Source of the DNA: a virus
IMG/VR virus record: IMGVR_UViG_3300006865_000393
Span: 1 to 31,330 of that record
Length of the DNA stretch: 31,330 nt
Strand: one strand, 5' to 3'
The translations under genes and the position numbers were made by a program. Below are positions 1,710 to 29,672 of this stretch, piece by piece (positions within the stretch are counted from its first letter, which is position 1; every line of letters begins with the position of its first letter). Under the pieces are notes generated by a model that saw only the letters and a program-made list of their open reading frames with translations, did no database searches and had not been told where the DNA came from.

Positions 1710-1757
1710 ATGACCAACAACACGCAATTCTCAACCACCTTGGAGGGAGTATGCTAA
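1710..1757 (+). CDS. 15-codon leader ORF overlapping the replication gene start
   Basis: An ATG preceded by AAAGGAG opens a 15-codon frame (MTNNTQFSTTLEGVC) whose TAA stop at 1755-1757 lies inside the first codons of the replication ATPase gene (ATG at 1751). The ribosome-binding site of the ATPase gene (GGAGGGAGT) is embedded in this short frame. The arrangement is what one expects for translational coupling or leader-peptide control of a replication initiator. There is no proof that the peptide itself matters. Confidence 0.45.
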   Translation: MTNNTQFSTTLEGVC

Positions 1758-2998
1758 CCGACGAACTCAACTGGCAGGAAACCCTCAACCTGCTCCAAAA
1801 CTCCATGTCCAGGGCCACCTTCAACACCTGGCTCCTCAACACCACCGCCACCCTGCGCGATGGCCGGCTCATCATCTACACCCCCTCCATCTACGCCCTC
1901 GAAACCCTCAAAAGCCGCCTGCGCAAAACCATTCAAACCGCCGTGCAAACCATCTACCAGGCCCCCCTGGAACTGGAATTTGCCCTCCGTACCGCCGAAC
2001 CTCCCCCCGCTCCAACCCTCCCCCCTCAAAGGGGGGAGCTAGAGGGGGGTGAGGCAGACGAACTCGACCTCCTCACCGCCAATGAAATCCTCACCACCGA
2101 CTGGCCCGAACCCATCTGGGCCATCCCCGGCCTCCTCCCCGTCGGCCTCACCATCCTGGCCGGCAAGCCCAAAATGGGCAAAAGCTGGCTCATCCTCCAG
2201 CTCGCCAAAACCATCGCTGCCGGCAGCCAAATCTTCGGCAGCGCCGTTGAACCGGGCCGCGTCCTCTACCTGGCCCTGGAGGACCCGCCCCGCCGCCTCC
2301 GCGAACGCATGCGCATGCAGCGCTGGCCCACTGACCTGCCCGTAGATTTTATGGTCATGGGCCAATTCATCCACCAAATTGGAGACCTTAGCAACGAAGG
2401 CGGCCAGCGCCTGGCCCGCCAGATCCAAAACCGCCAGTACCGCCTCGTCGCCATAGATACCCTCTCCCGCAGCGTAGAAGGCGATCAAAACGATGTCGAA
2501 ATCATGACCCGCGCCCTCATCCCCATCCACGAAATGGCCCACGCCAAAAACTGCGCCGTCCTCCTCTGTGACCATCACAACAAAGCCTCCGGCGTCAACC
2601 CCGACGCCATCGCCGACATCCTCGGCTCCACCGCCAAAGGCGCCCTCTGCGATACCGCCTGGGGCCTCTACCGCCAGCGCGGCCAAAACGACGCCCGCCT
2701 CTCTGTCGTCGGCCGCGAAGTCATCGAACGCACCCTGGCCATGTCCATCAACTGGGAAACCGGCCTCTGGCAAGACCACGGCGACGCCGCCAAACTAACC
2801 GACCGCCACCAGGAAATTCTCGACGTCCTGGAGTATCTCGACCGGCCCACCCTCAACAACATTAGCCGTGTTCTCAACCAGGACCCCAGCAACACCTACA
2901 AGCGCCTCAAGGCCATGCTCAACGGGGGCCTGCTCAAAAAAGATATCCAGAAAAGAGAAATCCTCTATCACTTAAACGGCCACGACCCGGAAGAGTAA
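1751..2998 (+). CDS. RepA-like replicative ATPase with DnaA domain I-like N-terminus
   Basis: The 415-residue product has three parts. Residues 5-78 resemble DnaA domain I (W-x(3)-L-x(6)-M-x(4)-F-x-T-W, then a strand DGRLIIYTPS and a helix ending in YQAPLELEF), the module that contacts DnaB or other partners. Residues 108-320 are a RecA/AAA_25-type ATPase with Walker A GKPKMGKS (138-145), a strand GRVLYLALEDP, Walker B RLVAIDT (231-237) and DHHNK further on, as in plasmid RepA hexameric helicases. The last 65 residues (from about DRHQEILDVLEYL) look like a winged helix for DNA binding. The linker at about residues 90-103 (PPQRGELEGG) is encoded by an inserted GC-rich palindrome. Start: ATG with GGAGG upstream, inside a short leader ORF. 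An iteron-like array follows immediately, so this is the probable origin-binding or helicase protein. Its exact role, initiator or helicase, cannot be told from sequence. Confidence 0.85.
   Translation: MLTDELNWQETLNLLQNSMSRATFNTWLLNTTATLRDGRLIIYTPSIYALETLKSRLRKTIQTAVQTIYQAPLELEFALRTAEPPPAPTLPPQRGELEGGEADELDLLTANEILTTDWPEPIWAIPGLLPVGLTILAGKPKMGKSWLILQLAKTIAAGSQIFGSAVEPGRVLYLALEDPPRRLRERMRMQRWPTDLPVDFMVMGQFIHQIGDLSNEGGQRLARQIQNRQYRLVAIDTLSRSVEGDQNDVEIMTRALIPIHEMAHAKNCAVLLCDHHNKASGVNPDAIADILGSTAKGALCDTAWGLYRQRGQNDARLSVVGREVIERTLAMSINWETGLWQDHGDAAKLTDRHQEILDVLEYLDRPTLNNISRVLNQDPSNTYKRLKAMLNGGLLKKDIQKREILYHLNGHDPEE
2018..2054 (+). repeat. GC-rich palindromic element in frame inside the replication ATPase gene
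   Basis: CTCCCCCCTCAAAGGGGGGAG followed by a GGGGGGTGAGG tail. It is translated as the low-complexity linker between the DnaA-like and ATPase domains, where an insertion is tolerated. Confidence 0.75.
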
Positions 2999-3000
2999 GT

Positions 3001-3179
3001 TACCATGACCATTACCTAGATAAACATAGTACCTACATGGTACATGGTAACATGGTAGGTAAATCATCACACAATGATTTCCTTACCATGCTACCATGTA
3101 CCATGACCCATATACATTCATCTATATGTTAGCCTATTATTTTACATAATAAACGAAGTAACCTAAAGAAAGCATGGTA
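3001..3179. other. candidate replication origin: palindromic array of TACCATG/CATGGTA iterons
   Basis: Eight exact copies of a 7-mer: TACCATG at 3001, 3084, 3092 and 3099, and its reverse complement CATGGTA at 3036, 3043, 3051 and 3173. The central six form a 22-bp inverted repeat (3036-3057 against 3084-3105, one mismatch). Between the arms is a second inverted repeat, AAATCAT (3061-3067) / ATGATTT (3074-3080). The stretch from 3107 to 3170 is strongly AT-rich in an otherwise GC-rich genome. The array begins right after the stop of the replication ATPase gene. Clustered iterons plus an AT-rich unwinding region beside the initiator gene is the classical layout of plasmid and phage origins. 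It could instead be an operator for a dimeric regulator. Confidence 0.65.
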
Positions 3180-3191
3180 GGAGAAACGCCA

Positions 3192-3461
3192 ATGCCCCAA
3201 AAAAACACCCGCTGGCTCAAAATCATTCGCCTCAGCCAGGCCCACCTCGCCCCCGGCATGTCCCTGCACCGCTGGCAAACCATCCTGGCCGCCCACGGCC
3301 TCTTACTCCCCTCTCCTGGCAGGAGAGGGGAAGGGGGTGAGGTTGATCCCTGGCCCACCGTTACCGACGACGCCCTCGACGCCCTGGTTGCCGAAATCAG
3401 CGCCATTGTCCGCGCCGCCCAACAGGAGGTAAAACATTGTTATCAACGAGCAGTTAATTAA
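3192..3461 (+). CDS. hypothetical protein, 89 aa, with palindrome-encoded insert
   Basis: I chose the ATG at 3192 because TAGGAG at 3178-3183 is well spaced; an upstream in-frame ATG at 3174 lies within the last iteron copy. The first 38 residues are basic (MPQKNTRWLKIIRLSQAHLA and on). Residues 39-51 (LPSPGRRGEGGEV) are encoded by a GC-rich palindromic element. The last 35 residues (DDALDALVAEISAIVRAAQQ and following) form an acidic amphipathic helix. No family recognised. Position just after the putative origin suggests a replication accessory gene, but nothing else supports that. Confidence 0.6.
   Translation: MPQKNTRWLKIIRLSQAHLAPGMSLHRWQTILAAHGLLLPSPGRRGEGGEVDPWPTVTDDALDALVAEISAIVRAAQQEVKHCYQRAVN
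3306..3342 (+). repeat. GC-rich palindromic element in frame inside a small gene
   Basis: CTCCCCTCTCCTGGCAGGAG hairpin followed by AGGGGGTGAGG. Typical member of the family; encodes LPSPGRRGEGGEV in the 3192-3461 gene. Confidence 0.8.
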
Positions 3462-6771: not shown

Positions 6772-6840
6772 ATTGGTTGTGATCTTTACAATTGGGTTGT
6801 AATTGGTTGTGATCTTTACAATTGGGTTGTGATTCTGTTG
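6772..6840 (+). promoter_or_regulatory. operator-like tandem 30-bp repeat
   Basis: Two 30-bp direct repeats, 6772-6801 and 6802-6831, differ only in the last base; a degenerate third half follows. Each unit holds GGTTGTGATC, and TTACAA-N5-TTGTAA forms a dyad at 6786-6802. The region is AT-rich relative to its surroundings and lies directly upstream of the 6879-7810 membrane operon, so it probably binds a regulator of that operon. Confidence 0.5.
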
Positions 6841-8465: not shown

Positions 8466-8684
8466 TTATGGATTGAGTTCCAGCCAGCGAATGATGACCC
8501 GTTCTGCCGTCTCAAACGCCTCCTGAAACGAACTGACCGGAAAACCCTTCTGGCCCAGCAACCCAATCAAAATCCAATGCTCGCCCGACCCGTGGTCCGT
8601 TTCCATCGCCGCGTCATACTGCGCTTGAATGGCGTGTACGTCATCCCGGCTCAACCGCCGCACCTGCTCATCAAAACTTACCAT
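8466..8684 (-). CDS. hypothetical protein, 72 aa
   Basis: I chose the ATG at 8684 because AAAGGA lies 8 bases upstream; an ATG at 8714 would read through that site. The product (MVSFDEQVRRLSRDDVHAIQ and on) is acidic and helical with a Trp-containing WILIGLLGQKGFPVSSF centre. No motif recognised. It stands alone behind an AT-rich intergenic region (8685-8800) that may hold its promoter. Confidence 0.6.
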   Translation of the reverse strand: MVSFDEQVRRLSRDDVHAIQAQYDAAMETDHGSGEHWILIGLLGQKGFPVSSFQEAFETAERVIIRWLELNP

Positions 8685-8800
8685 ACCATGTCCTTTTTGA
8701 AATAGAGAAGTCAAAAATAATTAAATTGTAAATACATTTTAATCTGCTTTATTTAATTTGTCAATACACTTATATCAATTTCAAGGTTATTATGCCAAAA

Positions 8801-9740: not shown

Positions 9741-9804
9741 GAGTAAGAAGTAGGCAGTAGGGAGTAAGGGAGATTTTTCCTCCCTACTCCTTACTCCTTA
9801 CTAT
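9741..9804. repeat. 7-bp tandem repeats forming an inverted repeat
   Basis: AGTAGGCAGTAGGGAGTAAG on the left and CTCCCTACTCCTTACTCCTT on the right flank a T-rich loop, so the pair can fold into a hairpin. It lies between the tail-fibre gene and the next gene. Same class as 12294-12362, 17140-17206 and 20290-20338. Confidence 0.75.
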
Positions 9805-12293: not shown

Positions 12294-12362
12294 GGGAGTA
12301 AGGAGTAAGGAGTAAGGAGTAAGGGAAGCCCCCTTACTACCTACTACCTACTACCTACTGCT
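12294..12362. repeat. 7-bp tandem repeats (AGGAGTA / CTACCTA units) facing each other
   Basis: About four AGGAGTA units followed by four CTACCTA units around AGCCCCC. They fill the gap between the tape-measure and hub genes and can form a hairpin. Confidence 0.8.
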
Positions 12363-17117: not shown

Positions 17118-17139
17118 TGTTTCTCCTTTAAATATGGAG

Positions 17140-17206
17140 TAAGCAGTAGGGAGTAGGGAGTAGGGTTTTCTTCCCCTTACTCCTTACTCCTTACTCCCTA
17201 CTTCCT
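17140..17206. repeat. 7-bp tandem repeats forming an inverted repeat
   Basis: GGAGTAGGGAGTAGGG and CTTACTCCTTACTCCTTACT arms around a TTTTCTT centre between the two tail-tube genes. Confidence 0.75.
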
Positions 17207-17917
17207 GCTAAAAATCACGGCAAAATCAAAACTGACCGCCGTGCCCGTTACATCATATAAAACCCGGACATAGCGATCTACTGACCCGCCGACGGCTTGC
17301 CGTTCAGCCCCAACCGCCGCGCCATCCAGGCTGAAGGTGATCAAATCAGCCCAGACCGCATTATCCGGCGAGTGCTGAATTTTGACCGAAATCGTATCCC
17401 CGGCGCTCACCCCGGTTAAAAACAGATAGCCCACCGCCCCATTCGTCGAGGCCGCCAGGTTATCCACGCTGGCCGTCTGCCCATCGGCGCTCACCCCGGC
17501 CAGGTTAGCCAGCAGCACGCCCCACTCCAGCGGCGTGCCAATACTCTTCAAACTGGCCTTGCTCACAATCGCCGCATCCAGGCTGCTGTTAACCGCATAA
17601 TTGCTTTGGTGCACCGGCATCGCACAGGCAATGTCGCCCACCGCCGGCGGAGCATTGTTGCCGTAAGCCACCCCGGCCACCTTATTCACCCCCACCGTCT
17701 TTAACGCCTGGTGGCTGCCGCCCTCGGCCTTATTAAAAAAGCCCTCAAACTCAAGGCTGCCCTCGCCCCGGCCACACAAGTAGCCCTTCACCGGGTTGTT
17801 ATAAGCCCCGGCCTCAATCTCATCATAGGCCGCCCCCGCCTCCACATTGCTGCTGTACGGCGTCAGGTGATAGCCATCCAACCAAAATTGCAAATATAAC
17901 CCTTTTCGTGCGCTCAT
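17198..17917 (-). CDS. second tail tube-like protein with extra C-terminal domain, 239 aa
   Basis: The first 110 residues are homologous to the downstream tube protein (MSARKGLYLQFWLDGYHLTP; YDEIEAGAYNNPVKGYLCGR; VAGVAYGNNAPP). The last 80 residues add a domain (SVDNLAASTNGAVGYLFLTG, ISVKIQHSPDNAVWADLITF, DRYVRVLYDVTGTAVSFDFA). Its beta strands and I-x-H-S-x-D-x-x-x-W pattern resemble discoidin/jelly-roll-like decoration domains of phage tail tubes. Two tube subunits or a tube plus decoration protein are both possible. Start ATG at 17917 behind GGAAAG. Confidence 0.75.
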   Translation of the reverse strand: MSARKGLYLQFWLDGYHLTPYSSNVEAGAAYDEIEAGAYNNPVKGYLCGRGEGSLEFEGFFNKAEGGSHQALKTVGVNKVAGVAYGNNAPPAVGDIACAMPVHQSNYAVNSSLDAAIVSKASLKSIGTPLEWGVLLANLAGVSADGQTASVDNLAASTNGAVGYLFLTGVSAGDTISVKIQHSPDNAVWADLITFSLDGAAVGAERQAVGGSVDRYVRVLYDVTGTAVSFDFAVIFSRK

Positions 17918-29273: not shown

Positions 29274-29346
29274 AATGGTTTTACTCTATCACACAACTCT
29301 CAAACGCAATATGTCATTTACGGAAGAATTTTTAACCGTAGCAAAG

Positions 29347-29406
29347 GCATCCCCATGCCTTTGCGGGCATCCCCATGCCTTTGCGGGCATCCCCATGCCT
29401 TTGCGG
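29347..29406 (+). repeat. three tandem 20-bp palindromic repeats
   Basis: Three exact copies of GCATCCCCATGCCTTTGCGG, each with a GGCAT-CCCC-ATGCC dyad, preceded by a partial copy. It lies in the gene-free interval 29274-29672. Units are too alike and too short for a CRISPR array. Confidence 0.85.
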
Positions 29407-29420
29407 GCATAAATGAAAAA

Positions 29421-29480: not shown

Positions 29481-29597
29481 GTCTTTCGCCCTGGAGCTAG
29501 TACTGATCAAACCGGTCCTGATCGAAGTAATTTTTAATTAGCTAAATTATACCCCGCTTGCCCGGCAATTTCCACCCCAAAAATTAGGGATTTTTGA

Positions 29598-29671
29598 AAG
29601 GATGAAGGCGGAAGGATGAAGGATGAAAAATTTTCTTCCTTTCATCCTTCATCCCTCATCCCTCATCCTTT
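29598..29671. repeat. 7-bp tandem repeats (AGGATGA / TTCATCC) forming an inverted repeat
   Basis: AAGGATGAAGGCGGAAGGAT on the left and CTTTCATCCTTCATCCCTCA on the right surround ATTTTCTT. The interval 29481-29597 has no gene and is AT-rich. Confidence 0.75.
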
Positions 29672-29672
29672 C

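Follow-up and report, generated by a model that had tools for sequence, protein, structure and literature searches.

In a tailed phage we describe an array of short inverted repeats (3001-3179) that most probably acts in cis as the replication origin, with the RepA-like ATPase gene directly before it (1751-2998, plus strand) encoding its putative initiator. This reading, drawn from sequence comparison, is supported by divergent relatives that often carry inverted arrays of their own motifs at the 3' end of the ATPase gene, as in the origins of PICI and SaPI elements. The window analysed here is the whole linear virus record IMGVR_UViG_3300006865_000393 (31,330 nt). Terminase, portal, major capsid and scaffold matches lie on its minus strand and an early region on its plus strand, and by this gene content it is a contig of an uncultured tailed phage with its own portal, capsid and terminase. 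The scan of early ORFs recognised neither a polymerase nor a primase, as would fit use of the host replisome, although most of these ORFs have no match at all. With this assignment, a phage represented by sequence alone gains a probable origin and a probable initiator.

Structure of the iteron array

The array consists of eight exact copies of TACCATG or its complement, starting at 3001, 3036, 3043, 3051, 3084, 3092, 3099 and 3173 in the order + --- +++ -. The left outer iteron (3001-3007, plus) begins 3 bases past the ATPase stop codon. It is followed by a left inner block of three iterons (3036-3057, minus), a 26-bp central spacer (3058-3083, about 65% AT) with its own dyad AAATCAT CACACA ATGATTT, and a right inner block of three (3084-3105, plus). 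Beyond the blocks lie an AT-rich stretch (3106-3172, about 77% AT), which may serve as a melting region, and the right outer iteron (3173-3179, minus). The initial annotation had reported the eight copies, the central dyad and the AT-rich stretch, and all three hold; the 60-mer 3112-3171 (77% AT, against 41% overall) is the second most AT-rich of the window. It had also described six copies as the arms of a 22-nt inverted repeat. These arms are complementary at 21 of 22 positions, and the full repeat proved larger: the palindrome 3036-3105 has 32-nt arms (3036-3067 and 3074-3105, 91% complementary) around a 6-nt loop, and is the best inverted repeat of the window.

The concentration of the motif at this place is pronounced. 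TACCATG occurs nine times in the 31,330 bases (mean 1.85 and maximum 6 in shuffled sequences), with a single copy, at 8684, outside the array. When all 7-mers were scanned, the TACCATG cluster ranked first in the window with a -log10 Poisson tail of about 17 per motif, against 9.1 for the runner-up. Folded as single-stranded DNA, the array region reaches -30.1 kcal/mol, compared with -14.2 +/- 3.0 in shuffles (z -5.25).

Such a hairpin could recall other intergenic elements of the window, namely purine-rich heptamer hairpins (AGTAAGG, AGTAGGG, GGATGAA) at 9742-9802, 12297-12338, 17138-17209 and 29596-29672, several of them beside T runs. In form they are similar to short tandemly repeated elements, and a role as terminators is possible; a literature search on heptamer repeats in Chloroflexi returned nothing usable. 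The TACCATG array shares with them the 7-nt unit and the hairpin habit, and might likewise be a transcription terminator or a passive mobile repeat. We regard this as highly improbable. Where those elements consist of purine-rich units (AGTAAGG, GGATGAA) and in several cases adjoin T runs, the array is of mixed sequence, has no T run after its hairpin, possesses outlying single copies and is matched in relatives by arrays at the end of the same gene. Additionally, no terminator-like site was found on the plus strand, and the region has no Rfam match as an RNA element.

The preceding gene encodes a RepA-like ATPase

The protein encoded at 1751-2998 matches Pfam DnaA_N (residues 8-66, E 4e-7) and AAA_25, a RecA-fold ATPase family (residues 108-280, E 2e-31). 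Among solved structures the closest by sequence is that of the RSF1010 helicase RepA (PDB 1g8y), with an E-value of 2.7e-6 alone and 3e-18 with the family profile. RSF1010 RepA is a hexameric 5'-3' helicase. The P-loop residues P140, K141, G143, K144 and S145 are invariant in 24 relatives. An AlphaFold model built from 24 aligned sequences has a confident core, and a fold search with it retrieved RadA, RepA and DnaB, with a TM-score of 0.70 by target length for RepA; a two-sequence structure prediction (mean pLDDT 42.5) was left out. Sequence, fold and Walker A/B residues together place the protein among the RSF1010 RepA-like (SF4, RecA-fold) helicases. At its C-terminus (about 351-408) the model has an H-H-H-E-E arrangement, and these three helices and two strands are confidently predicted to form a winged helix; relatives give HTH profile matches. 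A domain scan found no primase domain in the protein. An AAA_25/RepA-like protein of a Lactococcus phage is a 5'-3' helicase (PMC8965321), and by analogy 5'-3' helicase activity is expected, as a prediction, for the ATPase of the window.

DnaA_N also occurs in initiator-like proteins without AAA_25, encoded by phages with related capsids (L083, L084, L085 and G012, the last at G012:1395-1571). In some of these phages repeats lie after or inside the gene of the DnaA_N protein; in L085 they fall within the gene, between HTH_36 and DnaA_N, an arrangement reminiscent of lambda O. The presence of DnaA_N in such different initiator-like proteins makes it look like a portable recruitment part.

Arrays recur at the ATPase gene end of relatives

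Searches with three query proteins (those of the window, L009 and L082) gave 26 loci; with the window added, 25 non-redundant loci were scored for whether the strongest 7-mer cluster of the locus falls within -150 to +350 of the ATPase stop codon. It does so in 18 of the 25 loci, where 1.6 are expected (p about 1e-13), and in 15 of 22 once the window and the two loci that had suggested the rule are set aside. A further scan found 171 ATPase relatives, of which 80 were kept and 39 loci were scorable. Here the cluster lies at the gene end in 19 of 39 (2.8 expected), or 18 of 38 without L152, the latter being the fair second-set figure since L152 is the contig of the first-set locus L140, the one pair for which identity between the sets was checked. 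When the major capsid gene was scored in the same way as a control, 1 of 34 loci had the cluster there (1.9 expected), which ties the association to the ATPase gene. By this test an array at the ATPase gene end is lacking in roughly one third to one half of the relatives; in four loci (L195, L203, L226, L230) the array sits slightly further upstream, inside the gene.

The motifs themselves differ. No two of the 20 listed for the first set are identical, although those of L122 and L131 are similar. Both orientations are present in 19 of these 20 arrays, so the mixture of direct and inverted iterons that the initial annotation had singled out as unusual is instead the rule among relatives. What is unusual in the window is the tightness of the fold, with its 6-nt loop. 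The nearest relative by ATPase, L009 (40% identity), has its iterons in a single orientation: five GTAAACA copies inside the 3' end of the gene. In L082, from a phage whose capsid protein is 70% identical, an array of AAATTCA/TTTCATGAA forms inverted blocks right after the RepA-like stop codon. Many divergent loci have a very similar layout after a RepA-like gene, and at least one of these loci belongs to a phage that encodes its own capsid; the rule that arrays lie at this gene end would allow origins to be found computationally in uncultured phages.

The inner array of the window was not found in a scan of other viral contigs, and scans of the genome collection returned no relatives of the ATPase. 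Across 50 records, nearly all of them capsid-related, TACCATG occurs as scattered copies and forms no array, which is expected if motifs are private to each phage.

These comparisons bear on whether the folded single strand, rather than the iterons, is the working element. Under that explanation the array would be a single-strand initiation or primase site, comparable to ssi of RSF1010 or the stem-loop of pRN1, with the iterons incidental to pairing. The long hairpin with its 6-nt loop is indeed strongly favoured as single-stranded DNA, and the essential stem-loop of pRN1 and the proposed one of BIP-1 lie just 3' of a replication gene (PMC4234260). However, a hairpin needs neither direct repeats within its arms nor outer copies, and the inverted blocks are far apart in most relatives, with loops of up to 117 nt, so that the compact hairpin is not the conserved element. 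A single-strand site is therefore a very unlikely explanation.

Several second-set contigs of 10-12 kb may be satellites, as judged by size only. Separately, L207 and L213-L219, of about 9-12 kb and several with isolate-style record names, are possibly a family of phage satellites; most share an AACTACC array (+ -- ++) after a RepA-like gene. In the relative with GTAAACA iterons at the ATPase gene, five further GTAAACA copies of opposite orientation occur about 10.5 kb away (L100 3296-3337; G001).

Layout is kept while motif and recognition helix change

Eight related loci (L162, L163, L165, L168, L170, L171, L175, L179) retain the outer/inner/inner/outer layout at similar offsets while the motif changes. 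A close match to the window (> <<< >>> < at +3, +38/45/53, +86/94/101 and +175 from the stop codon) is L163 (> <<< >> < at +12, +35/45/57, +121/130 and +163), and L142 has the same copy order as the window. Outer single copies are also present in L142, L163, L165, L170, L175 and L179.

Within the eight loci, a pattern noticed after looking at the data links the motif to residues of the predicted recognition helix: Asp-Gln-Arg-Leu goes with TAAGA-type motifs (L162, L168, L171, L175), x-Asn-Leu with AAACTT-type motifs (L163, L165, L179) and Val-Gln-Leu with TCTTTCA (L170). The helicase core of L163 is 84-85% identical to those of L162 and L171 and 75-77% identical to those of L165 and L179, yet its recognition helix and motif side with L165 and L179. 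That the motif tracks the recognition helix over core identity suggests that the winged helix reads the iteron array, a prediction supported indirectly by this one small, related group. Across the first set as a whole, similarity of the winged helix correlates weakly with that of the motif (rho 0.13, p 0.07). The coupling makes initiator-origin specificity directly testable.

Surroundings of the array and a possible operator role

Downstream of the array is a small plus-strand ORF of 89 aa without a family match (3192-3461, start ATG at 3192), and the last iteron overlaps its Shine-Dalgarno-like GGTAGGAG. This overlap, the position of the array before the next ORF and a weak sigma-70-like site at 3111-3140 would suit a transcriptional operator, at which the initiator or another phage regulator binds to control the operon from 3192 and no origin is present. 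We consider this unlikely, if less so than the two explanations above. The promoter-like site is at chance level (one found, 0.6 expected), and the arrays of relatives follow the initiator gene and may even fall within its 3' end (L009, L129, L135). Autorepression, which the initial annotation had offered as an alternative to an origin, does not fit either, since the array follows the gene, and the DNA upstream of the gene has no exact TACCATG; the origin half of that proposal is favoured by the relatives' arrays at the 3' end of the ATPase gene. Many initiators also regulate, and a dual role as origin and operator is thus possible.

GC skew, suggested earlier as a check, lends no support to an origin at this place, as there is no switch at 3 kb and the skew is negative along 1-31330. 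It does not follow the flip of coding strand near 9.8 kb, where plus-strand early genes give way to minus-strand late genes. Replication that is unidirectional, or concatemeric at a late stage, might account for the uniformly negative skew, as might composition. No DnaA box was found in the window.

Comparison with known replication systems

The nearest parallel to the proposed origin is found in PICI and SaPI elements. In PICIs the origin directly follows the 3' end of rep and has an AT-rich region between two sets of iterons (PMC6092414), and SaPI Rep and SCCmec Cch2 each use the C-terminal domain to bind sites located shortly after the gene that encodes the protein (PMC7581432). The window likewise has its array immediately 3' of the initiator gene and shares with these elements short iterons in two sets together with AT-rich DNA (PMC6092414, PMC7581432), as well as an initiator composed of an ATPase core and a C-terminal DNA-binding domain, which here is predicted from the modelled winged helix. 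In contrast, its most AT-rich stretch (3106-3172) is between the right block and the outer copy and not in the spacer, and its inner blocks join in a single tight hairpin. The SaPI Rep proteins have ATPases of the DUF927 or D5/Primase_Cterm type, whereas that of the window has an AAA_25/RepA-like RecA fold with DnaA_N. Furthermore, the window encodes terminase, portal and major capsid protein, unlike a helper-dependent satellite. The origin layout is known from PICI and SaPI elements; what sets the window apart is the RecA-fold ATPase, the DnaA_N domain, the full phage context and the merging of iterons with a stem-loop.

Other systems share single elements. The ATPase matches RSF1010 RepA by sequence and fold and both origins have iterons, but RSF1010 binds its iterons with a separate protein, RepC, whereas here the predicted winged helix is fused to the RepA-like ATPase. 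In archaeal pRN1 and phage BIP-1 a stem-loop lies directly downstream of a helicase gene ending in a winged helix, as in the window (PMC4234260); these systems have an archaeo-eukaryotic primase with an SF3 helicase and no iterons, whereas the window has iterons and no primase domain was found in its ATPase. The SCCmec helicase Cch2 uses its C-terminal domain to bind repeats lying shortly after its own gene (PMC7581432), as is predicted here; it is a 3'-5' helicase of a D5-like family, and the RepA-like ATPase of the window is expected to be 5'-3' (PMC8965321). In a lambda O-type origin the iterons are within the initiator coding sequence, unlike the array of the window, which starts after the stop codon.

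Proposed mechanism

From these features we infer how the array might work in iteron binding, melting, helicase loading, recruitment of host DnaB and replication direction. The C-terminal winged helix of the ATPase would bind the TACCATG iterons, and the two inverted blocks of three with their single outer copies would place ATPase subunits symmetrically, nucleating one or two ATPase rings. ATP-driven assembly could then open AT-rich DNA beside or within the palindrome. The ATPase may act as a ring helicase itself, or its DnaA domain-I-like N-terminus may draw in host DnaB, or both; in DnaA, domain I contacts DnaB. We place no weight on the six inner iterons equalling the subunits of one hexamer, because other arrays have other counts.

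A broader and more tentative proposal, to which we give somewhat less than even weight, is that these loci represent an as yet unnamed class of origins, widespread among phages and satellites. A RepA-like (SF4, RecA-fold) ATPase fused to a winged helix would recognise an inverted array directly after its own gene and load itself, one protein standing in for RepA and RepC of RSF1010, and the motif would drift with a few recognition-helix residues as a readable specificity code. If the ATPases do self-load, they would be SF4-type initiator helicases.

Other features of the window

The AT maximum of the window is at 8670-8780 (85% AT over 60 bases), with the remaining exact TACCATG (8684) at its edge in TTACCATACCATG; this region is predicted as a possible second site for the ATPase protein. 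In the early region, the ORF at 4537-5136 matches phage HNH/homing-endonuclease families (PHROGs 559 and 9084). Three tandem 20-bp units (GGCATCCCCATGCCTTTGCG) are present at 29346-29410, and a near-exact 30-bp tandem duplication at 6772-6831.
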